The position numbers and the translations under genes were made by a program. The notes under the pieces were generated by a model. It worked only from the letters and a program-made list of their open reading frames with translations. It made no database searches and was not told where the DNA came from. Of a stretch of DNA of 27,164 nt, positions 6,746-24,301 are shown in pieces. This DNA is from a virus, in IMG/VR virus record IMGVR_UViG_3300017772_000092, positions 1 through 27,164 of that record; one strand, written 5' to 3'. Positions within the stretch are counted from its first letter, which is position 1, and the number at the start of each line of letters is the position of its first letter.

Positions 6746-7864
6746 TCAATCAATCAAATATACTAAGTCTTTCTTACCGTCTAAGATTTCCATACCTTCT
6801 TTTCTTAGAATATCGTACTTTTCCTTAGTGGAAATATTAGCACCTGTTTCAGCAATAAGAATAGTTTGGTCATCGTGCCGTAGTATTTCTGCCGCAACCA
6901 ATTTAGTAGCGGCTTCATGAATTGCAGAAGGCACTCTTCCATCACCTGCAACGAAACTAACAATAACTGAATTTTTTCTGTGGTAAGGATACTTCTTATT
7001 GAAGAAAATACGACCATCACTACCCATCATCCAAAAGTCTCCTAGTCTTTTCATTTCCTGCTTGTCAGTAAAATTAACCACTACACTATCGGAAGTTTGC
7101 CCCGCTTGGTCTGTGACTGTAAGAGTACAATCCGAACCATCCTCGCCTTCTAACAGACTAGAAATATGGACTAAGGTTCCGTCTTGACTATCAGTGTAAG
7201 CATAGAAAAAATCGGAAATAGAATATCCACTAGTCAAAGAAGTGTTTGCCTTTTCAGCAGTGGCTCCCGTAAACTGTGCAGTCCTAGCAGGAAACTGTTC
7301 GTTAATCAAAGCAACAATTTCCTTTGCCGTAGTCTTTGCTCCAAAATTTAAATTGAATGTCTGTGTGGCCGACTTACCGCCTTCCCCACTATAAAACAAA
7401 TCCCAAGAATCTACTGAATTAGGTAGAGTTAAGGTTAGTTTTCTTATCTTATTGTATTTGGAAGTGTCCAAACTAATACTCGCTTGAGCAGAAGCCAACT
7501 CTCTATAATTGGTTCCTTCCCAAACTTGAAGGCTGATAATCTTTCTAACTTTCATTTGGTTTAATTGAACAAACCCTACATAGCCACTATAGTAAGAGTT
7601 TATTGGGTGATGGGTAAATTCAAAATCACGAAACTCATCCTTCCAAATAATAGGTCTAAAGGAACGATTTATCATATCATCAATAATCCCTTCTGTTCTT
7701 TTAATAATAGAACCTATTTGTGCGTCAGTAGGATTGGTTACAGAAGTAAAAGCAGGTATCTGTAGTAAATCCGAGACTGATGTTTTATCAGTATAAAACC
7801 CACGGCCTTGAGAGTAATCTACATTTATGTTGGTATAGTCACTAGGGGATGATGATACAGGCAT
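6746..7864 (-). CDS. Head-tail connector (HK97 gp6-like) with inserted beta domain
   Basis: The ends of this 372-residue protein look like a head-tail adaptor. The N-terminus has D-L-L-Q-I-P-A-F-T followed by a helix I-G-S-I-I-K-R-T-E-G-I-I-D-D-M-I-N-R-S (51-68). The C-terminal half has V-P-S-A-I-H-E-A-A-T-K-L-V-A-A-E-I-L (311-328), the classic helix of gp6-like connectors. Those families usually have 100-200 residues. Here about 115 residues (150-265) of Thr/Ser-rich beta sequence are inserted between the two parts. The start ATG 7864 follows TTGGAGGTC. The protein would form the ring under the portal and bind the tail. Confidence 0.68.
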   Translation of the reverse strand: MPVSSSPSDYTNINVDYSQGRGFYTDKTSVSDLLQIPAFTSVTNPTDAQIGSIIKRTEGIIDDMINRSFRPIIWKDEFRDFEFTHHPINSYYSGYVGFVQLNQMKVRKIISLQVWEGTNYRELASAQASISLDTSKYNKIRKLTLTLPNSVDSWDLFYSGEGGKSATQTFNLNFGAKTTAKEIVALINEQFPARTAQFTGATAEKANTSLTSGYSISDFFYAYTDSQDGTLVHISSLLEGEDGSDCTLTVTDQAGQTSDSVVVNFTDKQEMKRLGDFWMMGSDGRIFFNKKYPYHRKNSVIVSFVAGDGRVPSAIHEAATKLVAAEILRHDDQTILIAETGANISTKEKYDILRKEGMEILDGKKDLVYLID

Positions 7865-9201: not shown

Positions 9202-9873
9202 TCACATTAACCACTTTGCCCATGCCGCACCCTTTTGGATAGCGGAGCCTAAATGCAATCCACTTTTAGGAGGCTCGTAACTAGTTTGCCCTGTTTGTGG
9301 GTCTACCCAAAATGGCCTACCGTATCCATCTGTACCGCTTGGTGGTATTGGATAGCCACTACCATTATTCACTGCACCTTGCATTTGGTTATATTGTTGA
9401 GTTTGTCCTGTAATGCCCGCTACCGCCATACCTGCTGATGGAGCCATTGCTTGTTGGTATCCTTGTTGAGGGGAAGTAAATCCTTGTGATTCTAAATACT
9501 GTTTCTTAGCCATCTTTCTTTGGTTGATTACTTCTGTATCAACCGCAGAGTGAAGAATTGCATTAATATCTAATTGAATATTTTCAGCAGTAATCTTTTC
9601 ATATTCCCTTAAACAATCGGGATGAACAGTGGTTTTACCTGTAGTAGAATCTTGAACGAATTCTAATTTAGCCAACATTTGACTTACTACTCTTTCTGTA
9701 ACATCTTCCATTAGTTTTTCTAATGCTCCTAAAAATTGCGCTCCGTGATACTGAAAAAATTCTTCCACATGGTTATCTTGCAAAGAAAGTAAATTATTTA
9801 CATTCTTGAATTGTTGGTCATTTTGAGCGTTTACCGCACTTAATACTGTTCCATTGCTTGTCCCAAATACCAT
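9202..9873 (-). CDS. Gln/Gly/Pro-rich protein with WW-like motif
   Basis: The start ATG 9873 follows AAAGGTGAATAAT, giving 223 residues. Residues 1-130 are helical with L-G-A-L-E-K-L-M-E-D-V-T-E-R-V. Residues about 135-180 are Gln, Gly and Ala rich and likely disordered. Residues 184-201 read G-Y-G-R-P-F-W-V-D-P-Q-T-G-Q-T-S-Y-E, very close to the second half of a WW domain (G-R-P-Y-Y-V-D-H-N-T-x-x-T-x-W), followed by P-P. The first conserved Trp is missing and the second is replaced by Tyr, so this may be a degenerate copy. It could bind Pro-rich segments of a partner. The function in the particle is unknown. Confidence 0.6.
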   Translation of the reverse strand: MVFGTSNGTVLSAVNAQNDQQFKNVNNLLSLQDNHVEEFFQYHGAQFLGALEKLMEDVTERVVSQMLAKLEFVQDSTTGKTTVHPDCLREYEKITAENIQLDINAILHSAVDTEVINQRKMAKKQYLESQGFTSPQQGYQQAMAPSAGMAVAGITGQTQQYNQMQGAVNNGSGYPIPPSGTDGYGRPFWVDPQTGQTSYEPPKSGLHLGSAIQKGAAWAKWLM

Positions 9874-9874
9874 A

Positions 9875-10507
9875 TTATTCACCTTTTCCTTCTATTAAAA
9901 ACTGCATTCTTTCTAATGATGTACGCATTTCTTGTGATAGTCTAACTACTTCTTCGGGAGGTGTTTCTTCTGCCTTATTAGTAGGGGGTTTTAGTATCCA
10001 TCCTGCCGAGGTTAGCGAAACCACATCTGCCTGTGATAGTGTGGTAAGCGGCCCCTTAGATAAAACTTGGGGCATTCTTGGTCTAGGGATAAATGCTTTA
10101 AAATCAAGACCGTGTTCTTCTGCTAGTATTTGTTGTTGTAGCATTTCCATTTGTTTATGTGTTGCTGAATGCTTATCACAATATGTTCCTCGCATAGGAC
10201 GACCCTTTTCTACATGAGTCAAAGGGATAGGAGGCCGCATATAATCTCCCGACTCCCATACTTTATGTGTTCCACAAACAACACACCGTTCCTTTAAATT
10301 AAATTTAAAGCCATATCTAATAAACAAAAATTTCTTTTTTTCGGCCATTAGTACTTGCTTGATTTCCTTTAACTTCTTTTTAGGTTTAATATTCTTAAAC
10401 TTATATTCCTCTACAGGGCCACTTGCTCTTGCTTGCATTAAGGGCGACAAAAACAAGTTACCTGTTTGTGGTGATTGCGCCCCTATCAAATTCGGTTGTT
10501 GGTACAT
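9875..10507 (-). CDS. Putative zinc-binding protein next to the GTPase
   Basis: This is a 210-residue protein from ATG 10507, whose TTGATTAAT leader includes the stop of the GTPase gene; a TTG at 10516 is an alternative start. The N-terminal 30 residues are Gln/Pro rich, then a very basic segment K-P-K-K-K-L-K-E-I-K occurs at 41-50. C75-x2-C78 and C110-x2-H113 make a likely split zinc site. The C-terminal half is helical with Pro-rich linkers (P-P-T-N-K-A-E-E-T-P-P). The Pro-rich linker is a possible partner for the WW-like motif of the next gene, but that is speculation. I recognise no family. Confidence 0.58.
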   Translation of the reverse strand: MYQQPNLIGAQSPQTGNLFLSPLMQARASGPVEEYKFKNIKPKKKLKEIKQVLMAEKKKFLFIRYGFKFNLKERCVVCGTHKVWESGDYMRPPIPLTHVEKGRPMRGTYCDKHSATHKQMEMLQQQILAEEHGLDFKAFIPRPRMPQVLSKGPLTTLSQADVVSLTSAGWILKPPTNKAEETPPEEVVRLSQEMRTSLERMQFLIEGKGE

Positions 10508-10512
10508 ATTAA

Positions 10513-11175
10513 TCAATAATCCTTTATCATTGTTGTAACGCCACGATAAACCATCTCCGGTTGCGACTTAGCGGATACTATGTATTTGAATGTAGGAATC
10601 CCTCGTTCATTTAGTTTTTGCATACCGTAATGGAACGGCTCAAAGATAGGGTGGTCTTCTATTTCACCATCATGTTTATATTTTTTACCCCACATATCAT
10701 ACTTATTAGCCCAAAGACCTATCGCCAAAGGATATTCTTCTGTTTTTTTCTTTTTTCCATTAGGCCAAGTACTTGAACAAATACCATCTACTAAAAACTT
10801 CCATGCTAATTGATGGTCTAAATTGGCTTGAATATCTAAATGCCTATGGTCAATTAAAAAAATAATGTATTTTACCTTTCTCTTCTGTATATCATTAAGC
10901 CATTGCCGCCAATAGATAGACTCCCCGCCCATATCCGCAGTCTTTAGTGTGTGAACATCACCGTCTATTTTTACTGTTTTTCTAGTGGGTCTATGCACCC
11001 CTACAGTCCTTTCTTTTATTTGAGGCACTTCCCCTCTAGTTCTTAACTGATGATGTAAAGTAGTTTTACCTACCATTGTTGCCCCGTACACACCAAAATT
11101 AATTGCGTGTATTTTTTTGTAAAAACCTATTATTGCTTCACCAATAAGAATAGCAAAACCTGTCATTACCGACAT
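10513..11175 (-). CDS. Ras/Arf-like small GTPase with N-terminal hydrophobic helix
   Basis: All five GTPase motifs are visible in 220 residues: P-loop G31-x4-G36-K37-T38, a switch-I Thr in E-R-T-V-G-V (57), DxGG at 81-84 followed by E, N157-K-Y-D160 for guanine selectivity, and S201-A-K203. The spacing and E-R-T-V-G-V-H...T-A-D-M-G-G-E are most like the Arf/SRP-receptor-beta branch. Residues 4-20 are hydrophobic and could anchor the protein at a membrane. A Lys-rich insert (140-145) lies before the NKxD motif. The ATG at 11175 overlaps the upstream TGA. It follows two small membrane proteins, so the three genes may act together. GTP binding is well supported, the role in a virus is unknown. 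Confidence 0.82.
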   Translation of the reverse strand: MSVMTGFAILIGEAIIGFYKKIHAINFGVYGATMVGKTTLHHQLRTRGEVPQIKERTVGVHRPTRKTVKIDGDVHTLKTADMGGESIYWRQWLNDIQKRKVKYIIFLIDHRHLDIQANLDHQLAWKFLVDGICSSTWPNGKKKKTEEYPLAIGLWANKYDMWGKKYKHDGEIEDHPIFEPFHYGMQKLNERGIPTFKYIVSAKSQPEMVYRGVTTMIKDY

Positions 11176-11176
11176 A

Positions 11177-11395
11177 TCAATGTCCCCAAATACCTGTTAC
11201 TTTGTCTATTAACCATCCCATGATGTTAATATCAAAAACACCCATGATGTTTCCTATTAATAAACATGACAAACCAACACAAGAACCCCAAAACCATGCT
11301 CTCATTCGCATAAAAAACATATCAGCAGAATGCGCTCTTTGTTGATTATACGCATAATCCGAGTCGGAAAAACCCATTAAGTCGCTCAAGACCAC
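11177..11395 (-). CDS. Small membrane protein
   Basis: This 72-residue protein starts at GTG 11395. The site GAGGTGG lies five to six bases upstream, which decides the start. The first 32 residues are polar (F-S-D-S-D-Y-A-Y-N-Q-Q-R-A-H). Residues about 33-54 form one hydrophobic helix containing two Cys, and a short amphipathic end ending I-W-G-H follows. It lies two bases before the GTPase gene, and the two are probably co-translated. Holin-like size and topology are possible, but holins are not usually placed among head genes. It may instead recruit the GTPase. I do not recognise the family. Confidence 0.6.
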   Translation of the reverse strand: MVLSDLMGFSDSDYAYNQQRAHSADMFFMRMRAWFWGSCVGLSCLLIGNIMGVFDINIMGWLIDKVTGIWGH

Positions 11396-11404
11396 TTAAC
11401 CACC

Positions 11405-11803
11405 TCACTGTAAGGTGGCTAAAAATTCATTTCCTATTCCTTCTTCTGCGTTATAAGTAGCAATTTCCGGTACTCTAGTAGTATTATAGTCTGTTTGGAA
11501 GGTCTTTAAAGAATCTTGCATTCTCTTCCTTTGTTGTTCTTCCTTGTTTTTAAGTTTCCAATAAGCCTCAATTCTTCTGTCTAGAAGACCTTGCTCTATG
11601 TAATCATTTAAAAATAAATCATTGAGAGCCTTCATAATTAGAATAGCACCCACTGTAATAAGTCCAAATAGAACCCCATGCGCTAAATGCGTATATGGGA
11701 AATTAGTACCATATTGTGCATAAAAGAAAACATTTGCTCCGCTAACTACCCCTACAAAAAGAATAGTCATGATTAGCCTAGTGTCGGTGTTAAGTGCCGC
11801 CAT
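11405..11803 (-). CDS. Two-helix membrane protein
   Basis: This protein has 132 residues. Hydrophobic segments at about 10-29 (L-I-M-T-I-L-F-V-G-V-V-S-G-A-N-V-F-F) and 41-60 (A-H-G-V-L-F-G-L-I-T-V-G-A-I-L-I-M) form a hairpin with a short loop. The remaining 70 residues are a charged helix (K-L-K-N-K-E-E-Q-Q-R-K-R) and a polar tail, probably facing the cytoplasm or particle interior. The start ATG 11803 follows TGAGGCGAT, with the upstream stop in that site. With the next two genes it makes a membrane cassette inside the head block. The function is unknown. Confidence 0.62.
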   Translation of the reverse strand: MAALNTDTRLIMTILFVGVVSGANVFFYAQYGTNFPYTHLAHGVLFGLITVGAILIMKALNDLFLNDYIEQGLLDRRIEAYWKLKNKEEQQRKRMQDSLKTFQTDYNTTRVPEIATYNAEEGIGNEFLATLQ

Positions 11804-12923: not shown

Positions 12924-14258
12924 TCAAGCCACATTCGTAATTTTACCTTGTCCACGGAAGAAGGAACACCCTGTTTCACCGATGGTTCGGTAAAGGGCTT
13001 GGTTTCCTAGACGACCGACACCGAATGGGTTTCCATTGGAGATACCATCCTCAAAGTACTGAGTAGGCTTCATAACAGAGAGCCATAGATGGTCAGTATC
13101 AAGGAACAATAGGTCACTAATTCCACTATCGGAAGCGTTACGAGTTCCGGTCATTTCCTTAACAGGGATGAGAGGAATGTCGTAGTATGTTGCAACACGG
13201 AATCCAACTTCTGCTCCCTTAATTCCACGAACACCATTAACAGTAGGAATAATTTCCTTTCTGTCCATGAATCGCTCTTGGGATTGTAGCAAGTCAGCAA
13301 TTGCTTGGATGGTATCGTATCCTGTTAGGATAACCTTTGGTGAACCACCGGCAATACGCAAGTTTCTAATCATAGCGTTAAGCAAAGTCAAAGTTAGTGG
13401 GCGAACCGTAGAGGCCGCATAACTGCCGTTGAAGTCTACTTCTGCATCTAGGAAAGAAGCGTCAGTGTATCTCTCATCACCGTAGATTTTACCTAGATTG
13501 TTAGTAGCACTAGTAGGGTCAGTAGCAAGTACTCCACCGTCTAGAGCGAGTAATTCTGCTCGGCTAGAGACAATCTTAAGAAGCGAAGTATAGTTTCGCT
13601 CAATGTCACCAAGAGCAGAGTTTTCACCGTAGAATTCAAGAGGCATAACTAGCATCTTGTTTTGTGCTTCTGCGTGAGCCTTACCCATGTCTTCACGGAT
13701 AATAGCACGAATGTCTCCCAAACCATCGTCAATTTGAGCCATTTCCATAGCCAATTCCGATATGTCAAATTGGTGAGCAACTGTCTTAGGACTCATAAAG
13801 AGTTGAGCGTAGGTAGGAGCCATGCTTCCTAGACCGTCAGCCGCAGTAGAAAGTCCTGCATTTTCGGGAACACCACCGATTTCATCTGCTTGTGGGTCGT
13901 CGGAACCAATTCCGCCGCCGCTACCGTCACTTTGCAAAGTAAGAGTAGAAGCACTACCACCAAAGGGTCGGCTCTTAAGAATTCTCCAACCGCTTGAGGT
14001 GTAAGGACGCTTTGATAGCATAGCCAAAGCATTAACTTCTCTGTTAAGCATTGACCAAACTTTCTGTCCGTATAGTACATTATACATTCCGGTAGCACTA
14101 CCAATTGCAGTAACTCCGCTTGCGCCTACTGCCGCAGTATCGTGTGCCGTGTGTAATCCTTGTACGACTCCTGCTTGCTTAAGGAGGGAATTTCCTCCAA
14201 ATGCAGGTACTCCGTATGTTGCCGCTTCTAAATCTCTAATTGTGTTAATATATGTCAT
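12924..14258 (-). CDS. Major capsid protein, HK97 fold
   Basis: This 444-residue protein stands directly after the protease-scaffold gene, the hallmark position. The N-terminal 50 residues are Ala/Gly rich and could act as an arm. The body has the helix-rich and beta pattern of HK97-type capsid proteins: an E-loop-like stretch around 95-125 with Gly/Ser-rich linker, a spine helix I-R-E-D-M-G-K-A-H-A-E-A-Q-N (about 186-199), P-L-T-L-T-L-L-N-A-M-I-R-N-L and P-K-V-I-L-T-G-Y-D-T in the P/A-domain region, then I-P-L-I-P-V-K-E-M. The start ATG 14258 has a very strong site GAGGTGATTT. Codon choice seems more GC-rich than in the neighbours, as expected for the most expressed gene. Confidence 0.85.
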   Translation of the reverse strand: MTYINTIRDLEAATYGVPAFGGNSLLKQAGVVQGLHTAHDTAAVGASGVTAIGSATGMYNVLYGQKVWSMLNREVNALAMLSKRPYTSSGWRILKSRPFGGSASTLTLQSDGSGGGIGSDDPQADEIGGVPENAGLSTAADGLGSMAPTYAQLFMSPKTVAHQFDISELAMEMAQIDDGLGDIRAIIREDMGKAHAEAQNKMLVMPLEFYGENSALGDIERNYTSLLKIVSSRAELLALDGGVLATDPTSATNNLGKIYGDERYTDASFLDAEVDFNGSYAASTVRPLTLTLLNAMIRNLRIAGGSPKVILTGYDTIQAIADLLQSQERFMDRKEIIPTVNGVRGIKGAEVGFRVATYYDIPLIPVKEMTGTRNASDSGISDLLFLDTDHLWLSVMKPTQYFEDGISNGNPFGVGRLGNQALYRTIGETGCSFFRGQGKITNVA

Positions 14259-14265
14259 GCTAAAT

Positions 14266-14281
14266 CACCTCAAATATTTCC
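14266..14281. repeat. 16-bp repeat, copy 1 (coding-strand GGAAATATTTGAGGTG)
   Basis: This copy covers the end of the protease-scaffold gene (G-N-I-stop) and the GAGGTG site of the capsid gene. The identical second copy is at 12544-12559. Confidence 0.8.
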
Positions 14282-14920
14282 GCTAACCATCTTGTGAATG
14301 TCGCTCCAATTCATCTCAGCAACTTCCTCTAGGGAAAGTACCTTAACTTCTTGTGCGGCTTCGTTGGCCTTGCGAATTTCTGCGTTTCCGTTATCCAAAG
14401 ACTTACGGAGTTCACTAAATTGTTGTCGTAGAGCAGAGATTTCATCTTGTGCATCGTACTCGGACTTTGCAACCAAATGTTCTCGGTGAGAAACTTCGTT
14501 CTCAAATCTCTTAGCGAAGGTATCTTGCAAGTTATCGTATGCAAGTTTTTCCATTTGCTCTGCTCTAAACTGAGCATAAGCCTTCTCAATGTTTTCCGAA
14601 GAAAGGTTTAGAGTATCAAATTCTCCGTTACCGAAGGCTTTTGAAACCTTACCTTCTTCTTCTGCTTGTGAAGAACCTGTTGGTTTTCCACCGCTTACAA
14701 CAACTCTTTCAGCAGGTTCACCTGTTTCTACAGAGCCGCCATCAAGCGTAGCAGTAGGAGACTTACGGGTATCATCCATATATTCTCCGCCCATCATTTC
14801 TTGTGCTTCTTCTTCTCCCGCCATGTTTTCCATTTCGGGGTCTTCTTCTTCTTTACGCAGAGTGTTCACTTCTTCTAGAAGAGTGTCCAATTCCGCCAAT
14901 GCTTTTTCTAATTTATTCAT
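14270..14920 (-). CDS. Scaffold protein from internal start within the protease gene
   Basis: In frame within the protease-scaffold gene, AGAGGTGA (14926-14933) lies five bases before ATG 14920. This site is as strong as the one of the capsid gene and is absent from ordinary internal Met codons. It would give a separate 216-residue scaffold starting M-N-K-L-E-K-A-L-A-E-L, acidic and coiled-coil rich, with the C-terminal M-N-W-S-D-I-H-K motif. The layout corresponds to lambda C/Nu3 and similar nested protease/scaffold genes. The start is directly visible, while separate expression is inferred. Confidence 0.7.
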   Translation of the reverse strand: MNKLEKALAELDTLLEEVNTLRKEEEDPEMENMAGEEEAQEMMGGEYMDDTRKSPTATLDGGSVETGEPAERVVVSGGKPTGSSQAEEEGKVSKAFGNGEFDTLNLSSENIEKAYAQFRAEQMEKLAYDNLQDTFAKRFENEVSHREHLVAKSEYDAQDEISALRQQFSELRKSLDNGNAEIRKANEAAQEVKVLSLEEVAEMNWSDIHKMVSGNI

Positions 14921-15442
14921 GTTAGTCACCTCTTGTTTGAGTATGTCAAATTTCGCTTCGGGATTTATTCCTTTTTCACAGATTGTTACTTCGTGCAATT
15001 CAAGTTTGCTAATTTCACTAAATTCGCCTAACTCTTCACTGCGCTTTTTCACTTTCTGTAATGCTTGTCCTCCAATGCTAAAAGACCTTAATGTTCCCTT
15101 GCGAATTCCTCTGCCTATTTCTTTGGCTTTTTCTATGTCGTCCCTTAATTTAATTACTACAAAAAATCCTACATCATCTACTTCGGTTTTCCATAGTCTT
15201 CCATTTGAGTCTCGGTAATTTTCTACTACTTCTCCTACTTGGACATTTGAGTGGTTTGTCATTACATTTCGGAAGTTTTTTTGTTCCATAAATTTGTTTA
15301 CTGCTTCTTTGAGTGATTTTAAGGTAATCAAATCATTTTGTTTATCTACCATTTCAATAGAAGCATATCCACCTATCATTAATTCGTCGCTTTTGATTAT
15401 TTGAAAGTCATCAAATCGTTGCGCCTTAATGATTGGCGACAT
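14270..15442 (-). CDS. Prohead maturation protease fused to scaffold
   Basis: The 390-residue protein has two parts. Residues 1-165 match the HK97-type (U35-like) protease: G-G-Y-A-S-I (24-29), catalytic His candidate in T-N-H64, Ser in S-F-S122-I-G-G, and E-L-H-E-V-T-I-C-E-K-G-I-N-P-E-A (148-163), the usual end of the domain. Residues 175-390 are acidic and coiled, as in a scaffold. An internal ATG at residue 175 has its own ribosome site. The last residues are M-N-W-S-D-I-H-K-M-V-S-G-N-I, a motif shared with other genes here. I chose ATG 15442 over TTG 15451 because GAAGG lies too close to the TTG. A TATA-like box lies about 30 bp upstream. Confidence 0.85.
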   Translation of the reverse strand: MSPIIKAQRFDDFQIIKSDELMIGGYASIEMVDKQNDLITLKSLKEAVNKFMEQKNFRNVMTNHSNVQVGEVVENYRDSNGRLWKTEVDDVGFFVVIKLRDDIEKAKEIGRGIRKGTLRSFSIGGQALQKVKKRSEELGEFSEISKLELHEVTICEKGINPEAKFDILKQEVTNMNKLEKALAELDTLLEEVNTLRKEEEDPEMENMAGEEEAQEMMGGEYMDDTRKSPTATLDGGSVETGEPAERVVVSGGKPTGSSQAEEEGKVSKAFGNGEFDTLNLSSENIEKAYAQFRAEQMEKLAYDNLQDTFAKRFENEVSHREHLVAKSEYDAQDEISALRQQFSELRKSLDNGNAEIRKANEAAQEVKVLSLEEVAEMNWSDIHKMVSGNI

Positions 15443-15459
15443 ATTACTCAAACCTTCGT

Positions 15460-15491: not shown

Positions 15492-17957
15492 TTATTCCAA
15501 TTTTAAGGTTTTGTACTTATCTTCATAGATATTCCAAACGCCTTCGTCTGTATCTTTATCTACAGGTTTTTGTTCATATCCTGTCCAAGCAATCCAACTT
15601 TTCTTATCTTTAATATCTACTACTCGGAAATGTAATTTAGTTTCAAACTTATTACCGTCTAGTATGTACTCATGGTATCCATTTCTTTGAACACCTACCT
15701 CTACATCTCCTTCATCTATTAATTTATGAGTATCCTGTTGCTCGGATATTTCCGCAGGATACTTTACTGCTTTACCAAACAATGCGAATATATCATCATC
15801 AGTCTCTAAATCAATAGTCCACATCAATAATTCTTCTTTGTGTTGTACTGAGAAATTAAGGTTGCCGTCCTTTCTCAAATAAATTTTAAATTGAGAAGGC
15901 TTCTCTTTAATTATTTTAGAATCGTCAATTGAAATCTTACCGTTGGATATTGATATATCTTCTCTACGGTTCAACCAATCCGGTAAGTCTTTCTTATCGC
16001 TTTCTAATACCGTTTCGTATTGGCTACCGTAATTCCTAATCAAGAAGTCATGTACCTCTGTTATTGGTTGTGGCCCCTTTCTTTTTATTAGATTGATAAC
16101 CCCTACATATATTTCCGATTGTAGGCTTTTCATTGTTTCTTCTGCTTCCTTCTTCCACATATCTAAATCGTGGATTGCGTTCTTAGCCATAAGATTAGTT
16201 TCTTTAAATCCGTATAAAGTAAAACCATCCATGCTTTTAGCAATCAAAGTTGCAGTGCCGTGAATTCCATCACTGATAGTTATTCCTTTTTTCAAAGCCA
16301 TAGTTTTGTATTTGATACTAGGCTTAGTATCTTTAGAAAGCATTTGCAAAGTCACTATTTTATCGGGTAATTCAACTTCGGGTATCTCAATAACCTTAGC
16401 GGAGTAAAGAGTAAACCTACCATTATCCTCTCTTACCTCATCTACTTTGACTCTAATGATTTGGCCGACCTTTGCATTAATCTTAGTATTAAGTGCTTTA
16501 CCGACATTCATGTATCTTCTATCGTTCTGTTCAACGATGTGCTTACCTTCGTCCTCATCAACCGGCCCTGCCCCTAAAGTGTAGGAATAAAGACCGGACT
16601 TAGTAGATTTCTTTTCTAGAACGACCATATCCAAATCTACAAACTTCTTCCACTTAACCCACTTAGGGTTTTTCTTCGTACCAATAAAGTAAGTAGATTC
16701 AATATCTTTAATGACTACTCCTTCCGAAGTAGGCATTTCCATAATCTCTTTTGCGTATTCTGCTATATCTTTTAGAGAGTCAGCAATACGAGTATCTTTC
16801 TTTGAAGGGTAAACCAAATCCGAAGAAGACTTGGAAGAATAATTGTTGAACAGTATGTTGATTCTGTCTCTTAGGGGTTCTTCTGTAAGGTTTTGAGCCT
16901 CATGTCTCATAATATCAAAAACATGCGCTCTTAGTCTAGCCTCTTTGTACTTATTCTTGAAAACATGGGCTATTGTATCTGCCCTATGCAGGGCTTTCTC
17001 ACCATCAAACAAAATTAACTCAGCATCAAGGATACAATCACCGTATGCTTTTTTCTGTAGTTCCTTGACTTGTTCGGAACACTTGTCTGTAATGTCCTTT
17101 TCATTATAGGAGTAGATATTGATTTTGTCATCTATCTTATGAATCTGTATTCGCATACCATCATATTTTTCTTGGACAACATATTCTCCACTAAACCCTT
17201 TCAATTCATTCATGTCATCAATGTCAAAGATTCGGTACATGGGTTTGTTAGGAACAATAAATTGAGAAGATGCCTTTTCAGTTTTCTCGGCCTTTTCTAA
17301 ATTGACTTCTACTAAGTCTTCTAAATCTTCTTCCGAAGAATTTGATAACATCATTTCTTCTAGTATCTTATTTGCTTTTTTGAATTGTGATTCAACTTTT
17401 TTAGAATCCTTATCATCACCATAATGCTCAATGATAAACAAAGGAACATCATCAACTACTAAATCAAGTCCTTCTAATCCATCAGTAATTTCATCTTCTT
17501 GTAATTCTTTAGATGTGTAGAAATCAGCAGGTAAGGCTTTTTCATCGGAACGAATAGCATAATGAATAAATTTGACCATTGTACCAACATCGGATAATAG
17601 TGCCTCTAGCACATTACCTTTGAATCGGTCAGCGAAGGGGTCTTCTACTTCTTCCGATTTGAAACGCATATCCTTAATGGCTTCGTAAATAATTCTAGCA
17701 GTAGTGCTTTCGGGGTCTTTAGAATCATTATCTTCTAAATGCCTTTCGTCTAAGAAAACATTAATTTCTTTACCCAAAGGAGAAATTGAATCAAATGCTT
17801 CGCTTATTTCTTCTAGTGTGTTTCTCCAACGACCACCGTATTCTTTCTTATCTTCCTTTGCGGATAGATAAGATACTCTAACCTTCTCAAACAAATGTAG
17901 TATTTCATCGGAAACGGGGGCTTTGACTTTCCCGATAGTTAAACCTGTAGAGGGCAT
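15492..17957 (-). CDS. ATP-dependent DNA ligase with LigD-PE-like C-terminal extension
   Basis: Nucleotidyltransferase motifs are clear: motif I E-K264-Y-D-G-M-R with the Lys that is adenylated, motif III L-D-A-E-L (310-314), motif IV S-E-G-V-V-I-K-D (411-418), and motif V W-V-K-W-K-K (433-438). An OB-fold region follows to about 530. The length, 821 residues, exceeds the usual 550-600 for archaeal ligases. Residues 1-250 do not look like a normal DNA-binding domain. Residues about 610-680 may be a winged helix. Residues about 688-796 resemble the LigD 3'-phosphoesterase domain in pattern but lack its His/Asp set. ATG 17957 follows GTTGATTAAA. The position inside head genes is unusual for a replication or repair enzyme. 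Confidence 0.85.
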   Translation of the reverse strand: MPSTGLTIGKVKAPVSDEILHLFEKVRVSYLSAKEDKKEYGGRWRNTLEEISEAFDSISPLGKEINVFLDERHLEDNDSKDPESTTARIIYEAIKDMRFKSEEVEDPFADRFKGNVLEALLSDVGTMVKFIHYAIRSDEKALPADFYTSKELQEDEITDGLEGLDLVVDDVPLFIIEHYGDDKDSKKVESQFKKANKILEEMMLSNSSEEDLEDLVEVNLEKAEKTEKASSQFIVPNKPMYRIFDIDDMNELKGFSGEYVVQEKYDGMRIQIHKIDDKINIYSYNEKDITDKCSEQVKELQKKAYGDCILDAELILFDGEKALHRADTIAHVFKNKYKEARLRAHVFDIMRHEAQNLTEEPLRDRINILFNNYSSKSSSDLVYPSKKDTRIADSLKDIAEYAKEIMEMPTSEGVVIKDIESTYFIGTKKNPKWVKWKKFVDLDMVVLEKKSTKSGLYSYTLGAGPVDEDEGKHIVEQNDRRYMNVGKALNTKINAKVGQIIRVKVDEVREDNGRFTLYSAKVIEIPEVELPDKIVTLQMLSKDTKPSIKYKTMALKKGITISDGIHGTATLIAKSMDGFTLYGFKETNLMAKNAIHDLDMWKKEAEETMKSLQSEIYVGVINLIKRKGPQPITEVHDFLIRNYGSQYETVLESDKKDLPDWLNRREDISISNGKISIDDSKIIKEKPSQFKIYLRKDGNLNFSVQHKEELLMWTIDLETDDDIFALFGKAVKYPAEISEQQDTHKLIDEGDVEVGVQRNGYHEYILDGNKFETKLHFRVVDIKDKKSWIAWTGYEQKPVDKDTDEGVWNIYEDKYKTLKLE

Positions 17958-17967
17958 TTTAATCAAC

Positions 17968-18483
17968 TTAAGGTGATAGTTCGTATGTGGGTGGGGCAAT
18001 GAATTTAGGAGGAAATAGAGGTTGGCCTAAAGCCTTAGATAGTGCAAATCTAGTGTAAATCTCTCTTTTTGATTCTTCGGTCATTCCCGCAAATTCTCGC
18101 TCAACTTTTTTCAAGTTCTCTTTCGTTATTCTTTTTGAGCCTGTGTCATACAACCAAGTTATGGCCGTTTCTACATCAAGTCCCTTAATACCCTGAAATT
18201 TTTCCCTAAGAATAGTATCATAATCTACTTCATTGAGGTCTTCTTTTTTAAAATGAGATTCTTGACCCGCCAACCCATATCCCGAATGAGTACCTTTGTT
18301 GTTCTCAATCTTGGTCTTGTCTTTTTCGCCTGTCTTTTTAGGTCGCTTTACTTTAACCTCTTCCGATTCATCATCGTAAGCAATTCTTTCAGCACTAGCC
18401 TGTTGTACTAATTCTTTAACAATTCTAACTTGCTCAATTGCTTGTGCAACTCTAACTTCTTCTTTAGTCATTTTTTCGGGCAT
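17968..18483 (-). CDS. Unknown charged protein
   Basis: The protein has 171 residues from ATG 18483. CGGTGA lies five bases before it and contains the stop of the upstream gene; a GTG at 18492 is too close to that site. Residues 1-45 form a helix or coiled coil (E-E-V-R-V-A-Q-A-I-E-Q-V-R-I-V-K-E-L-V). Residues 45-75 are a Lys-rich linker with K-R-P-K-K-T-G-E-K-D-K. The last 100 residues look folded and helical (A-I-T-W-L-Y-D-T-G-S), ending in a Pro-rich tail P-L-F-P-P-K-F-I-A-P-P. It is one of five unknown genes between portal and ligase, and an internal head or ejection protein is possible. Confidence 0.58.
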   Translation of the reverse strand: MPEKMTKEEVRVAQAIEQVRIVKELVQQASAERIAYDDESEEVKVKRPKKTGEKDKTKIENNKGTHSGYGLAGQESHFKKEDLNEVDYDTILREKFQGIKGLDVETAITWLYDTGSKRITKENLKKVEREFAGMTEESKREIYTRFALSKALGQPLFPPKFIAPPTYELSP

Positions 18484-18488
18484 AAGTT

Positions 18489-18713
18489 TCACCGTCCACC
18501 TACGAATTTCTCTATATCATCCCAAGACATTTTATGAATTACATCATCTGTCGGCATGGTTGAGTTAGTAATTGAAGGAGTAGGAGATTGAGCAACAACA
18601 AATCCCGACTTCATTAGAATATTGTCTTTGTTGTAGACTGCTTGTTCTAGAGTCTTGATTCTACCCACTAGAGCCTTTAGGATTTCTAAAACTTCTTCGT
18701 CTGTTTCACTCAT
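18489..18713 (-). CDS. Small protein with C-terminal W-D-D-I-E-K motif
   Basis: This 74-residue protein starts at ATG 18713 after GGGGGATT and overlaps the preceding gene by 8 nt. Residues 3-30 are a leucine-zipper-like helix (V-L-E-I-L-K-A-L-V-G-R-I-K-T-L-E-Q), then comes a flexible Ser/Thr/Pro region, then the end K-M-S-W-D-D-I-E-K-F-V-G-G-R. That end closely matches the end of the protease-scaffold protein (M-N-W-S-D-I-H-K-M-V-S-G). It looks like a bivalent adaptor: an oligomerising helix linked to a docking peptide. The function is not known. Confidence 0.6.
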   Translation of the reverse strand: MSETDEEVLEILKALVGRIKTLEQAVYNKDNILMKSGFVVAQSPTPSITNSTMPTDDVIHKMSWDDIEKFVGGR

Positions 18714-20695: not shown

Positions 20696-20917
20696 TCACC
20701 ACTTATTTTCTGTCTTGTTTCTTCTTTTTACGGGAAGTTGAACCGCATCGGGAGTATCTGCTGAACCCCGTTTAGGAGTATGAGTAGTATCGGGAGGTAA
20801 ACCACCCAAAGAAAAATCCCTATTCTTTCTAACTGCTCTATCTTCGGCGGCTCTTTGTGAGCGAACCTTTGCTAACTCTCTTGCTAACTGTGCTTCTTTT
20901 CTTGCTATATCTGTCAT
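20696..20917 (-). CDS. Small basic protein after portal
   Basis: This 73-residue protein starts at ATG 20917, sharing one base with the stop of the portal gene (TAATG). Residues 1-33 are a charged helix (A-R-K-E-A-Q-L-A-R-E-L-A-K-V-R). The rest is Pro/Thr-rich and basic (L-P-V-K-R-R-N-K-T-E-N-K-W) and likely disordered. It is tightly coupled to the portal and may be a portal or scaffold accessory protein. The function is unknown. Confidence 0.55.
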   Translation of the reverse strand: MTDIARKEAQLARELAKVRSQRAAEDRAVRKNRDFSLGGLPPDTTHTPKRGSADTPDAVQLPVKRRNKTENKW

Positions 20918-22557
20918 TATGGTATTCTCCTTTCACTTCTTGAATCAACATTTTGATTGCCCGCTTCTTTGGGTAATCCTGTCATACGCTTATCCGGCCC
21001 TACGCTCATCCTCGCTTTATTTCTTGTGGCCGGTGGGTTCTCTTGTGGCTTACTTCCGCCTTGCATCATCTGTTCTTGCATCTGTCCCATTTGCGAAGCA
21101 TCAATATTTGTTCCCGCATAAGGGTCAATATCAACGCTAGAATCTTCTTCTCCTTCTTGCTTAGGTGTTTCTTTTGGTTCCGGCTTACTAAAAGTAAACT
21201 GTCCGTCTTCATCCATATCTACTTCAAATCCTAGATTCTTAGTAGAAGCCGCAATATTAACTTCAATCTCTCTTTTACGAAGTACTGCTATTTCATCCTC
21301 TTCTTCGCTAGGAGGTAGTTTTAGAACCCAATCTGTAATTCCAAACTCTTTAGTTAAGAACGGGAAAACATAATCATTGTAGACATTTTGAGCCATTTGT
21401 ACTGCTCTATTAGTGACTAAGATTTGCATACCTTCATTGTTAAGTCCACCGCTAGTAGTGTTGTCAGCCATGAAGACTTTACTAACTCCATAGAACGCTG
21501 AAATCCTATCTCGCAAATCATCCTTTACTGCAACATATTCCATCTCTTTTAGACTGTCCATGAATTTAATCCATTCAACAGAACCCTTACCATTCTCTGC
21601 TTCAATTCCCATAACAGGAATATAGTGAGGGTCTTGCTCCATCCGTTCTTTAACCCCTCTCCAAAATGCGGCCATAGAATCCATATTTCTAGTTTGCACT
21701 GCTAACAAACCTCTAGGCATTCTACTCTTAGTGTATGAAGAATTGACATAATTTTCCATAGCAATAAGTGTCATTATGTTATTGAATAAAGTTAGAATAG
21801 GAGATTGCCCATACATTCTACTAGGGTTGTATTTACTAAAGTGCAATACTTCTCCTTGTAAGAAGTACTGATGTTCCCCATTAGCACGATTAACATAGTG
21901 TACCGGATAAAGAGGACTACCACATTCTTCACAACTTTCATGTGGTTCATGGGCAAGATGGCTTCTATGGTTAATACAAGTGAAACCTTTTGTTCCTCTA
22001 ATGCCTACTTCATCAGCATAGATAGTCATAGTTACAGGGTCGCCTCTAAACAATTCCTTGATTCGGTGCATACGGATTTTGCCGTTACCATCCAAGTAAT
22101 ACTCTTTTACAAGAACAATATACGCATCATCCATGATATTCAAATCATCTTCTAATTCTTTAAATACATCAATGAATTTTTGCTCGGACTTATTTACATA
22201 TCCTTCTATGAAACTTTCAGCATATTCTAATTGTTTTGGGTTGGGTTTTTCTAAGTCTGTTGAGCCACATCTAGCACATTCCTGTACCGGCATCTTGTGT
22301 GTTTTTTGACAAGATAAACAACGGGACTCAAACGCCTTTTCCCAAACATAGCCTCTGCGAAAAATTTCTTGTTTAAGTTGAGTAATACAAGTCCTAACAA
22401 TAACTGATTGCCCCACGACATTGTAGACCAATGGCCCTGTCATCATGTAGGATTGTTCTTTCTCTTGAATACCTACATTGAAGACCTTTCTATCGTTAGG
22501 TTTAGGAGTAGTCCTTCGGAATAGATTTGTGAACGAAAAGCGTCTTTTATCAGCCAT
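20917..22557 (-). CDS. Portal protein with two zinc-ribbon inserts
   Basis: The start ATG 22557 follows GGGGAGGAT. An earlier in-frame ATG at 22584 would place that site inside the gene. The 546 residues have portal features: an N-terminal F-T-N-L-F-R-R region, a V-G-Q-S-V-I-V-R-T-C-I entry to the wing, a conserved helix A-M-E-N-Y-V-N-S-S-Y-T-K (about 265-276), L-R-D-R-I-S-A-F-Y-G-V-S (about 345-356) and S-G-G-L-N-N-E-G-M-Q (about 365-374), typical of HK97/T4-like portals, then a stem helix. Two metal sites are inserted, C80-x2-C83...C94-x2-C97 and C194...C209-x2-C212 with nearby His. The last 90 residues are Gln/Met-rich and disordered. The protein forms the dodecameric DNA entry ring. Confidence 0.84.
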   Translation of the reverse strand: MADKRRFSFTNLFRRTTPKPNDRKVFNVGIQEKEQSYMMTGPLVYNVVGQSVIVRTCITQLKQEIFRRGYVWEKAFESRCLSCQKTHKMPVQECARCGSTDLEKPNPKQLEYAESFIEGYVNKSEQKFIDVFKELEDDLNIMDDAYIVLVKEYYLDGNGKIRMHRIKELFRGDPVTMTIYADEVGIRGTKGFTCINHRSHLAHEPHESCEECGSPLYPVHYVNRANGEHQYFLQGEVLHFSKYNPSRMYGQSPILTLFNNIMTLIAMENYVNSSYTKSRMPRGLLAVQTRNMDSMAAFWRGVKERMEQDPHYIPVMGIEAENGKGSVEWIKFMDSLKEMEYVAVKDDLRDRISAFYGVSKVFMADNTTSGGLNNEGMQILVTNRAVQMAQNVYNDYVFPFLTKEFGITDWVLKLPPSEEEDEIAVLRKREIEVNIAASTKNLGFEVDMDEDGQFTFSKPEPKETPKQEGEEDSSVDIDPYAGTNIDASQMGQMQEQMMQGGSKPQENPPATRNKARMSVGPDKRMTGLPKEAGNQNVDSRSERRIP

Positions 22558-22609
22558 AATGTATCCTCCCCAATTACTGTTCAATAGCCATCGTTAATGA
22601 TGTTTGTTA

Positions 22610-22897
22610 TCACCATAATTTCTTACAGGCTAGACATTTAGGAGTTGTTATTCTCCCTTTGCATTCGTGACACTTATGCCTTGCTTTGAATGACTTTCTT
22701 CTTTTAGGGTTCTTGTGGGTTCCACCACCACGATTTTTACCCTTTGCTTTGTAGTTACCATATCCCTTAGCACCGGCATGGATTTTCTTTCCTTCATGGG
22801 TGAGCATCATGATTTTCTTACCGCTTCTATCACTAGGATATACAGTCCCAACCCTCATATCTTTTTTGTCCTTTTTTAGAATAGTTTTCCAACTCAT
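22610..22897 (-). CDS. Basic zinc-ribbon protein with N-terminal W-K-T-I-L-K motif
   Basis: This 95-residue, strongly basic protein starts M-S-W-K-T-I-L-K. The centre, K-K-I-H-A-G-A-K-G-Y followed by T-H-K-N-P-K-R-R-K-S-F-K-A-R-H, resembles a short signature seen in small proteins of many tailed viruses (I-H-F-G-x-x-Y...R-R-x-S-Y/F-x-A-R-H; possibly the DUF5754-type family, from memory). The C-terminus has C76-x2-C79 and C88-x2-C91, a zinc ribbon. ATG 22897 overlaps the upstream stop as ATGA. A 52-bp gap follows before the portal, in which I see only an imperfect CATC/GATG palindrome and no promoter. It is a likely nucleic-acid-binding particle protein. Confidence 0.65.
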   Translation of the reverse strand: MSWKTILKKDKKDMRVGTVYPSDRSGKKIMMLTHEGKKIHAGAKGYGNYKAKGKNRGGGTHKNPKRRKSFKARHKCHECKGRITTPKCLACKKLW

Positions 22898-23295
22898 TTT
22901 TCTCGCCTCTCTTGATTTTCTTTTGAGGTCTTATCATCATCAATTGGGCCACCTTTAGCCCAAGTGTAGCAAGTTCTAGCCGAATGACATTTGAAATCGT
23001 GCATCCAACAATAACCTAAACGCCCATCTTCGTCTGTATTTAGAGGCATACATTCATCCATTCTAGGAGAAATATCAAACGCTACGCAATTACTACAATT
23101 AGATTTCTTAGCAACATCAGCAGTAGTATTCCATTTCTTCGCATACCTAACCCAATAGTCTTCATCTTCTAAATTCAAAGGCCCGTACTGAATGTACTTT
23201 TCCTTGACTGCTCTATCTCTATTTTTGGTATTCAGTTCCAAATCTTGAGTAGCAACAGGGCAAGAAAATGCCTTGACTAGAATTTTCCAACCCAT
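22894..23295 (-). CDS. Cys-rich metal-binding protein with N-terminal W-K-I-L-V-K motif
   Basis: The best start is ATG 23295. AAGTGATACA precedes it, with the stop of the upstream gene inside, and the product begins M-G-W-K-I-L-V-K as its neighbours do. An upstream in-frame ATG at 23331 would hide the motif. The 133 residues contain C67-x2-C70, C82, C96, C103 and C109 plus H99 and H104, spaced with aromatic residues (G-Y-C-W-M-H-D-F-K-C-H). Two zinc ions or an iron-sulfur cluster could fit. The tail is hydrophilic (D-D-D-K-T-S-K-E-N-Q). No family can be named with confidence. Confidence 0.65.
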   Translation of the reverse strand: MGWKILVKAFSCPVATQDLELNTKNRDRAVKEKYIQYGPLNLEDEDYWVRYAKKWNTTADVAKKSNCSNCVAFDISPRMDECMPLNTDEDGRLGYCWMHDFKCHSARTCYTWAKGGPIDDDKTSKENQERREK

Positions 23296-23299
23296 TGTA

Positions 23300-23509
23300 T
23301 CACTTGCCTTGTAGCCCGAATCTTCTAACAATATTTCTAAGTGCTATTCTTTTCTTGGTATTATGGTCTTTACTACTAAGATAAGGATTGTTGTATTCTT
23401 TTTTGTATTCGTCCACTTGTTCGGGAGAAAACTGATAAGTCTTCCCATCAACAGAATAACGCATACCAATCGCCTTTCTTTTATTCTTCAAAACCACTTT
23501 CCAACTCAT
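23300..23509 (-). CDS. Small basic protein with N-terminal W-K-V-V-L-K motif
   Basis: This protein of 69 residues starts M-S-W-K-V-V-L-K-N-K-R-K. It has no Cys. A short beta stretch M-R-Y-S-V-D-G-K-T-Y-Q-F is followed by a helix S-P-E-Q-V-D-E-Y-K-K-E-Y and a basic helix K-K-R-I-A-L-R-N-I-V-R-R. GAGGAATAA precedes ATG 23509. It is the only one of the six clustered small genes without Cys, so the N-terminal motif rather than metal binding is what unites them. The function is unknown. Confidence 0.6.
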   Translation of the reverse strand: MSWKVVLKNKRKAIGMRYSVDGKTYQFSPEQVDEYKKEYNNPYLSSKDHNTKKRIALRNIVRRFGLQGK

Positions 23510-23511
23510 AC

Positions 23512-23898
23512 TTATTCCTCTTCATCTGTAGGTAAAGGTAGGCCATCTAACAGAATATAGTCTCCCTTTTTATGCTGAACAACATTCTCCATGTTCTCTA
23601 GCATATCTTTTAATTCATCCTTAGACATTTTAGTAGACTCTTCTAGAGGTTCTAAACCGGATGCCCCGCCCTCTTCTTCTAGAGTAGAAACAATTGTTTC
23701 TGTTGGGTCAGCCTTCTTAGCACTATCTCTTAACATGGAAAAATCCTTACCTGTAATCTTTCCATCTTTGTCTCGGTCTAATTTTCTTTGTCTACCGATA
23801 AGTTCCTTTTCCATTTTTTCTTCACATGCACTACAACTACAACCGGAACCGGCTTTTTCTGTATTGCAGTGTGCTTTCAATATATTTTTCCAAATCAT
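23512..23898 (-). CDS. EF-hand-containing Cys-rich protein with N-terminal W-K-N-I-L-K motif
   Basis: I start this gene at ATG 23898, which overlaps the upstream stop as ATGA and yields M-I-W-K-N-I-L-K; an upstream in-frame start at 23940 would bury the motif. The 128 residues contain C11, C20, C22 and C25 (G-C-S-C-S-A-C) and then a canonical EF-hand loop D41-R-D43-K-D45-G46-K-I48-T-G-K-D52 flanked by helices. The C-terminal part is acidic and ends in P-T-D-E-E-E. Calcium binding is plausible; only one loop is present, so it may pair as a dimer. The role may be structural in the particle. Confidence 0.66.
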   Translation of the reverse strand: MIWKNILKAHCNTEKAGSGCSCSACEEKMEKELIGRQRKLDRDKDGKITGKDFSMLRDSAKKADPTETIVSTLEEEGGASGLEPLEESTKMSKDELKDMLENMENVVQHKKGDYILLDGLPLPTDEEE

Positions 23899-24131
23899 TT
23901 TGTTCCCTTCCTTCTTTTGTAGGTTTTGCAAGCCGAACATGTCGGCCTACATCTTCGTTTAGTTCCTTTACCTGCGTTCTCTCTCCCACAAGGTTTAACT
24001 CCTTTTTTATCATCTTCGCATGATTGACAAGAAACCCAACCCGAAACTGTTTCTCCGTCTTCTCCTTCGGCTTCGTTTTCAAACCATTCGTCTAAACTTT
24101 TCTCAATTTTGAGAATTTTTTTCCAACTCAT
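23895..24131 (-). CDS. Small zinc-binding basic protein with N-terminal W-K-K-I-L-K motif
   Basis: This 78-residue protein begins M-S-W-K-K-I-L-K-I, the clearest copy of the shared motif. An acidic stretch (E-N-E-A-E-G-E-D-G-E) leads into G-W-V-S-C35-Q-S-C38, then C48-G-R, then C61-R-P-T-C65-S-A-C68 in a very basic end (K-T-Y-K-R-R-K-G-T-K). The Cys pattern can hold one or two zinc ions. It overlaps both neighbours by ATGA. Similar small Lys/Cys-rich proteins occur in marine tailed viruses as far as I recall, without known function. Confidence 0.64.
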   Translation of the reverse strand: MSWKKILKIEKSLDEWFENEAEGEDGETVSGWVSCQSCEDDKKGVKPCGRENAGKGTKRRCRPTCSACKTYKRRKGTK

Positions 24132-24301
24132 GCTTTTCTACCTACCCAAATTTGTCCTTGTCGGCATCGTTCCATAGCACCCGATTTATACGCCCCATGT
24201 TCTTCATATTCTTCGTCTGCAATTAAAGCGCAACGGTCTTTCTTTTCTCCTTTGCTATTATGAGTAGCAGTAGCCTTTACTTTAAGAATATCAAACCACA
24301 T
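24128..24301 (-). CDS. 57-residue protein with N-terminal W-F-D-I-L-K motif
   Basis: This short gene starts at ATG 24301, sharing one base with the upstream stop (TAATG), and ends in an ATGA overlap with the next gene, so it fills the space exactly. It begins M-W-F-D-I-L-K-V-K-A, then has D-R-C-A-L-I-A-D-E-E-Y-E-E-H-G-A-Y-K-S-G-A-M-E-R-C-R and ends basic (I-W-V-G-R-K-A). The two Cys with nearby His could bind metal. GGTGAG lies five bases before the ATG. The tight overlaps and the strong site support a real gene. The function is unknown. Confidence 0.66.
   Translation of the reverse strand: MWFDILKVKATATHNSKGEKKDRCALIADEEYEEHGAYKSGAMERCRQGQIWVGRKA

Follow-up and report, generated by a model that had tools for sequence, protein, structure and literature searches.

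Among the head genes of a virus that fits the magrovirus-like tailed archaeal viruses lies an open reading frame (ORF) that is almost certainly a very divergent small GTPase, and its gene belongs to a five-gene cassette that is either complete or absent in related viruses. The window analysed here, meaning the whole stretch of DNA under study, comprises 27,164 nucleotides (positions 1 to 27,164 of the IMG/VR record IMGVR_UViG_3300017772_000092). The reading that makes the best use of all the parts is a step at the membrane, be it in assembly, release or entry, and it is supported by invariant motifs, a Ras-like model, an all-or-none colinear cassette, two predicted membrane partners and tight gene packing.

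A conserved small GTPase

The GTPase ORF lies on the minus strand at positions 10513-11175 and begins with an ATG. Its features are the following:

10513 to 11175, minus strand: small GTPase, cassette gene 3, 220 amino acids (from motifs and fold model)
11110 to 11172, minus strand: N-terminal hydrophobic helix, residues 2-22 (model helix and hydropathy; G6, F7 and E13 invariant)
11062 to 11085, minus strand: G1/P-loop GATMVGKT, residues 31-38 (G31, G36, K37 and T38 invariant, 209/209)
11005 to 11007, minus strand: G2, switch I Thr57 in RTVG (invariant, 209/209)
10921 to 10935, minus strand: G3 DMGGE, residues 81-85 (D81, G83 and G84 invariant, 209/209)
10900 to 10902, minus strand: Trp92 of the Arf/G-alpha type in the switch II helix (invariant, 209/209)
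10696 to 10707, minus strand: G4 NKYD, residues 157-160 (N157, K158 and D160 invariant, 209/209)
10567 to 10575, minus strand: G5 SAK, residues 201-203 (invariant, 209/209)

The original prediction had described all five small-GTPase motifs as intact, and they are, not only in the window protein. Scans of IMG/VR, stepped from close to distant relatives, yielded 439 full-length homologous ORFs representing 209 distinct sequences, which are 60-98% identical to the window protein (the 60% floor was counted among 92%-non-redundant representatives) and down to 54% identical among themselves. Every G1-G5 residue is kept in all 209 distinct sequences without exception, and because the 439 homologous ORFs keep each residue, the motifs are not a product of chance. 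Relatives that had lost the P-loop or NKxD residues would have refuted the assignment; no such relative exists among these sequences. The tryptophans W89, W92 and W155 are likewise invariant (209/209).

The catalytic-Gln position after DxGG is occupied by Glu85 in the window protein, and across the family by Glu in 159 and Gln in 50 of the 209 sequences, a distribution that requires five changes on the GTPase tree under parsimony. The corresponding Ras substitution, Q61E, speeds hydrolysis. By analogy, Glu85 may alter intrinsic GTP hydrolysis, which is itself inferred here; the residue is not essential to the family, because a quarter of the distinct sequences carry Gln. The dN/dS ratio of the gene is about 0.03-0.07 in those comparisons with the window that could be computed, showing purifying selection.

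A few copies depart from the common pattern. In IMGVR_UViG_3300006810_000369 the GTPase gene is broken by an in-frame stop near residue 125, which reflects either a sequencing error or a recent loss, and the other incomplete copies stop at or adjacent to a contig end. The scan of genome contigs gave a single match, NZMJ01000024.1, a 12-kb contig of a public 'Maricaulis' metagenome-assembled genome (MAG) that is most likely a virus contig mis-binned into this MAG. No relatives were found among phages (50,697 records) or plasmids, which is not proof of absence.

Profile matches, predicted fold and family placement

The original prediction called for a profile search and a structure prediction, and regarded placement in a non-GTPase P-loop family as a refutation. 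The profile search returned almost only GTPase families, and the refuting placement did not occur. For the window protein, the Pfam matches include MMR_HSR1 (E 0.0035), SRPRB, Roc and Ras, and TIGR00231 (small_GTP) is matched with an E-value of 0.0006, all under the curated cut-offs; Ras (PF00071), for example, reaches 15.8 bits against a cut-off of 21.6 bits. Arf (PF00025) is not matched by the window protein in the Pfam search. Across 91 diverse family members, MMR_HSR1 is matched by 87, SRPRB by 78, Roc by 75, Ras by 57, G-alpha by 36 and Arf, weakly and with a best E-value of 5e-5, by 32, while P-loop ATPase families give scattered weak matches in a minority of them. A phmmer/hmmsearch comparison with PDB sequences found nothing better than Ras at an E-value of 0.68. 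PHROGs contains no matching GTPase family, the best matches of the window GTPase being other P-loop proteins, and in four records with the cassette (87-103 kb) PF01926 misses the gene; for these two reasons the GTPase could escape notice, and since it lies under every curated family cut-off, it is overlooked by routine annotation.

More sensitive comparisons agree on the Ras superfamily. Profile comparison with hhalign aligned the GTPase to human H-Ras from the P-loop through SAK with a probability of 91% (E 1e-6) and more weakly to Arf1 (26%), while the control, the P-loop kinase-like zeta-domain protein of HCTV-1, scored 0.1%; H-Ras and Arf1 served as yardstick sequences. AlphaFold2, given the 91-sequence alignment, produced a model with a pLDDT of 77.7 and a pTM of 0.76, compared with a poor model (pLDDT 57) from 23 close sequences only. 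The former has the full Ras-like order of strands and helices, with helix 2-22 in front. Foldseek matched it to Rab, Ras, Arf and Arl, and realignment with VIA-align 2 put Arf/Arl at the top, with Z-scores from 18.6 down to 17 over 153-176 residues, two Asgard Arfs at 17.2 and 17.0, and Rab at 16.5. All 1000 of 1000 chains had Z-scores of at least 8, and the matches listed were mostly Arf/Arl, then Gtr/Rag and Rab. The BFVD matches listed all come from giant eukaryotic viruses, and most of them are Ras/Rab GTPases. Sequence identity to cellular GTPase families is 15-22%, a level at which a tree with them would scarcely be resolved.

Motifs and predicted fold therefore place the protein in the Ras superfamily, as what would be a separate family with Arf-like structural features. 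It is not filed as Arf because several Arf-defining features fail. The earlier description of a Ras/Arf-like GTPase thus holds at the level of the superfamily, with the choice between Ras and Arf unresolved. A packaging ATPase or another P-loop protein was considered and ruled out by the invariant NKxD and SAK, the fold and the 0.1% hhalign control. The broader objection that the ORF encodes another P-loop ATPase or a dead pseudo-GTPase could draw on the sub-cut-off scores of single sequences and on the P-loop proteins that head the PHROG matches, but it is hardly tenable against invariant NKxD and SAK motifs, a Ras-like fold whose top matches are Arf, Rab and Ras, and the 91% for H-Ras against 0.1% for the P-loop kinase control.

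The N-terminal hydrophobic helix, proposed from the start as a membrane anchor, is borne out as a helix by the model (residues 2-22). Its maximum 19-residue Kyte-Doolittle value is 1.66 and its hydrophobic moment 0.20-0.31, so that the hydrophobic character outweighs the amphipathic one. Because this hydropathy is borderline for a membrane-spanning segment, anchoring is likely and not shown; the helix is a probable anchor, and its membrane location is inferred.

The five-gene cassette

The GTPase gene is the third of five. Genes 1 and 2 encode membrane proteins with two helices and one helix, respectively (both assignments being predictions from sequence), gene 4 encodes a C2CH zinc protein and gene 5 a protein of about 226 amino acids. 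The partners and the two flanking genes are:

12924 to 14258, minus strand: major capsid protein (MCP), upstream flank (PHROG 24667, E 1e-20; Druskaviridae MCPs 25% identical)
11405 to 11803, minus strand: cassette gene 1, 132 amino acids, two hydrophobic helices and a charged tail (hydropathy segments at about 8-28 and 45-65; co-occurs with the GTPase)
11177 to 11395, minus strand: cassette gene 2, 72 amino acids, probably one transmembrane helix (hydropathy and co-occurrence; RAHSAD conserved)
9875 to 10507, minus strand: cassette gene 4 (p213), zinc-binding-type protein (alignment and co-occurrence with the GTPase)
9202 to 9873, minus strand: cassette gene 5 (p226), about 223-226 amino acids (alignment: conserved helical part; C-terminal half-WW-like motif)
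6746 to 7864, minus strand: head-completion-type protein (by position), downstream flank (PHROG 17057, function unassigned, E 4e-14)

Distant relatives have two layouts downstream of the MCP gene. Both begin with a decoration-like gene and end with the head-completion-type gene. Between these, the first layout has the 132-aa, 72-aa, GTPase, 213-aa and 226-aa genes and then a gene of 443-621 amino acids, and the second has a single gene of 788-1026 amino acids. When every locus reaching from the MCP to the head-completion-type gene was searched with profiles, all five genes were found in 300 loci, none in 32 and a mixture in 0, corresponding to 161 complete and 28 empty loci when counted by distinct MCPs (n=189). 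Gene order and strand are the same in 300 of 300 loci. On the MCP tree, this pattern needs one change, with modest support for the split (SH-aLRT 71). Whole-record searches of three records without the cassette (88-94 kb, perhaps incomplete) found neither the GTPase (including by PF01926) nor p213, and the head-gene loci of Druskaviridae and vir335 contained no ORF with the pattern GxxxxGK[ST]...[NT]KxD. The proposal that the GTPase belongs to the head module is upheld by its position between the capsid and decoration genes and the head-completion gene, and is refined in that the unit is a five-gene cassette missing in a sister clade. As the head-tail genes are present without it, the cassette is an accessory late module and not core head machinery.

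GTPase distances correlate with MCP distances (r 0.64), which is consistent with inheritance of the cassette GTPase mainly by vertical descent. Gene 2 and the GTPase are separated by 1 nt, and the ATG of p213 lies 5 nt past the GTPase stop, spacings that make co-expression very likely; a scan for bacterial promoters remained at chance level. The five genes very probably act together, complex formation being inferred.

In p213, C78-x2-C81 and C113-x2-H116 are invariant (numbering from the listed ORF start). The C-terminal motif of p226, [FY]W[IVM]xPxxxQxx[YF]xPP, scores as the latter half of a WW domain (PF00397, E 0.001, sub-cut-off), a match given by 5 of 12 relatives. Such domains are typical of eukaryotes, and the half-WW resemblance could be convergence. 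Pfam searches of p213, p226, p132 and p72 found neither DUF2073 (ArvB) nor DUF2072 (ArvC), so that homology of p213 and p226 to ArvC and ArvB was rejected for want of a match, and none of the partners had detectable homology to a known GAP or GEF.

The virus and its structural genes

The window encodes an HK97 MCP, an S78 protease, a portal, a terminase nuclease domain, a tape measure and an ATP-dependent DNA ligase, and many contigs of its relatives measure 84-103 kb. Magrovirales/Aoguangviridae and Druskaviridae have the MCP, portal, S78 prohead protease and ATP-dependent DNA ligase in common with the window, and the MCPs of the Druskaviridae HCTV-1 and HVTV-1 are about 25% identical to the window MCP; unlike in the window, the cassette is missing from Druskaviridae and from a sister clade among the MCP relatives. 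The window virus thus fits a magrovirus-like tailed archaeal virus (Magrovirales), which is inferred and not shown, as is a Poseidoniales (Marine Group II) host, inferred from the magrovirus literature only.

Several features of the neighbouring minus-strand genes were observed in passing. An 835-aa ATP-dependent DNA ligase gene (15492-17999) lies among the head-morphogenesis genes, immediately upstream of the one for the prohead protease. The portal protein (20917-22584) carries CxxC pairs with weak zinc-ribbon profile matches, which is unusual for a portal. In a 658-aa ORF (24301-26277) adjoining the terminase nuclease domain, the sequence AAFIDSDGYI resembles the LAGLIDADG motif of homing endonucleases; an intein or a homing insertion in the terminase gene is possible. 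Proteins encoded at 22610-24131, 18489-18713 and 14270-15451 share a Trp-containing motif at their starts or ends: consecutive small proteins start with M[SI]WKxxLK-type sequences, with similar starts in sister viruses (L346, L374 and L387), and MxWxDIxKxV-type sequences form the C-terminal ends of the prohead protease and of a 74-aa protein. This terminal motif is perhaps a capsid- or scaffold-targeting signal. Among the related records, IMGVR_UViG_3300021958_000021 (184,733 bases) is about twice a 92-kb genome and its separate matches are spaced by about 97 kb, pointing to an assembly duplicated in tandem.

A possible role at the host membrane

The tentative proposal, which falls just short of an even chance, is that a membrane-tethered GTPase complex acts on the host membrane late in infection, with assembly or egress as its endpoint; the GTP cycle, the membrane location and the complex are all inferred. 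The cassette would be transcribed together with the late structural genes, and the GTPase would be held at the host cytoplasmic membrane through its N-terminal helix, forming one complex with the products of its four neighbouring genes. The 132-aa and 72-aa integral membrane proteins may serve as a membrane receptor or scaffold, the C2CH zinc protein is a candidate regulator of the GTPase, and the 226-aa protein is a candidate adaptor to capsids. GTP binding would recruit the partners to the membrane and hydrolysis would release them, and the complex may bend or mark the membrane such that heads dock, assemble or exit there. That the cassette acts at a membrane at all is probable, a location that is again inferred. 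Membrane remodelling for assembly or egress as the endpoint is the most uncertain part, a guess slightly tilted towards being wrong. The precedents, vesicle formation by ArvA (PMC10927574) and the mimivirus Rab (PMC4569851), are analogies. Against the proposal stand the borderline helix, the partners without ArvB, ArvC, GAP or GEF homology, the sister viruses that manage without the cassette, and the lack of biochemistry, virion proteomics or a cultured virus. A membrane or budding step is also unexpected, since an icosahedral head-tail architecture of the ordinary kind and a likely lytic lifestyle are predicted for Aoguangviridae (PMC10768690).

Other roles can be envisaged for the same genes. 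The GTPase and its partners might be virion components, located in the capsid, beneath it or at the portal vertex, that serve in entry or carry lipid into the particle. A position on the structural strand between the genes for decoration and head completion, strong conservation of a similar degree to that of the MCP and the correlation of GTPase and MCP distances (r 0.64) would all accord with this, but the same flanking head genes occur in sister viruses without the cassette and two integral-membrane-like partners would be unusual in a tailed virion, leaving it unlikely. The head-module position would equally suit a GTP-using checkpoint or chaperone for capsid building or tail joining with no membrane role; head-tail genes that occur without the cassette, together with a hydrophobic N-terminus and membrane partners, make this very improbable.

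A lysis module, in which the small membrane proteins form holin-like pores and the GTPase is a timer, is improbable. It gains from the one- and two-helix small proteins immediately upstream of the GTPase, from the late operon and from the Glu at the catalytic position, which could mean a fast intrinsic clock by analogy with Ras Q61E; yet known holins need neither a conserved GTPase nor a zinc protein, 50 of 209 relatives have Gln instead of Glu, and no endolysin was noticed in the window. Interference with the host is quite unlikely, whether the GTPase were to mimic or compete with a host GTPase of the Arf/ArvA type as a decoy or the cassette were a membrane-based superinfection-exclusion or counter-defence module: the retention of all catalytic residues is unnecessary for a mere decoy and the cassette sits amid late structural genes, even though it is accessory and clade-specific and includes membrane proteins, and even though Euryarchaeota can encode vesiculating GTPases (PMC10927574). 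A stronger version of the preferred membrane reading, somewhat unlikely as it stands, would make the cassette a self-contained Arf-like vesiculation or membrane-coupling machine, built from the GTPase, two membrane scaffolds, a zinc regulator and an adaptor, for assembly at the host membrane or exit through it, possibly in the absence of lysis or within vesicles.

Significance and comparison with known systems

Ras/Arf-type switches are hallmarks of eukaryotic membrane traffic, and virus-encoded ones have so far been reported in giant eukaryotic viruses. Archaeal small GTPases have only now been tied to vesicle formation (ArvA, PMC10927574). A literature search found no report pairing a magrovirus with a GTPase, which does not exclude earlier annotation. 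The protein is rated here as a new family of the Ras superfamily, none having been found reported in the late module of tailed archaeal viruses, and no counterpart of the four-partner cassette was recognised. These results suggest that a large and widespread group of marine tailed viruses, probably with archaeal hosts, brings its own machinery for handling the host membrane. With a highly conserved and catalytic-residue-complete GTPase in the late block, the idea that tailed viruses of prokaryotes have GTPase-driven membrane machinery becomes directly testable. The cassette also offers candidates for the membrane partners and for a zinc-containing regulator of a small GTPase of archaeal type, proteins that are hard to find in cellular archaea. 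Since routine annotation misses this sub-cut-off GTPase, further cases may be overlooked.

The best structural matches are Arf/Arl proteins (Arf1, Arf6, Arl1, Arl3 and the Asgard ArfR; Z 17-18.6), and the viral GTPase shares with them a helix ahead of strand 1, DxGG, NKxD and a switch I of the T-[VI]-G type, T57-[VI]-G59 in nearly all relatives. Arf and G-alpha proteins have a Trp seven residues beyond the catalytic position, which is W92 in all relatives here. Unlike Arf, the viral protein has Ser2 or Thr2 and no Gly2 for myristoylation, Ala/Ser80 instead of Trp (W66 of Arf1) before the G3 Asp, mostly Glu85 instead of Gln, and SAK instead of CAT. SRP receptor beta (SRPRB) likewise has a membrane helix at its N-terminus, ahead of a G domain of the Arf type, and PF09439 is the second commonest Pfam match in the family (78 of 91 members), but the window protein is sub-cut-off, no SRP-receptor alpha partner was seen, and SRbeta is eukaryotic.

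The Rab and Ras proteins of giant viruses (mimivirus R214 and others) are also virus-encoded small GTPases (PMC4569851, PMC11915834), and a role in virion membrane acquisition has been proposed for the mimivirus Rab (PMC4569851); unlike the GTPase described here, they are eukaryotic genes acquired by nucleocytoviruses, with neither a tailed virus nor a cassette. In Euryarchaeota, vesicle formation is driven by the small GTPase ArvA, whose N-terminal helix is amphipathic (Mills et al. 2024, PMC10927574), and the zinc-ribbon protein ArvC from the same operon is a proposed GAP (PMC10927574). ArvA/OapA with ArvB and ArvC likewise combine a small GTPase annotated as PF01926, an N-terminal helix (amphipathic in ArvA, mainly hydrophobic in the viral protein) and a zinc-binding-type neighbour, whereas the viral cassette has two extra membrane proteins, is virus-borne and has no DUF2073 or DUF2072 match. 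The cassette is thus reminiscent of ArvABC and of eukaryotic Arf as a functional analogy only; if the vesiculation or membrane-coupling reading is true, it would be the prokaryotic-virus counterpart of eukaryotic coat-GTPase systems.
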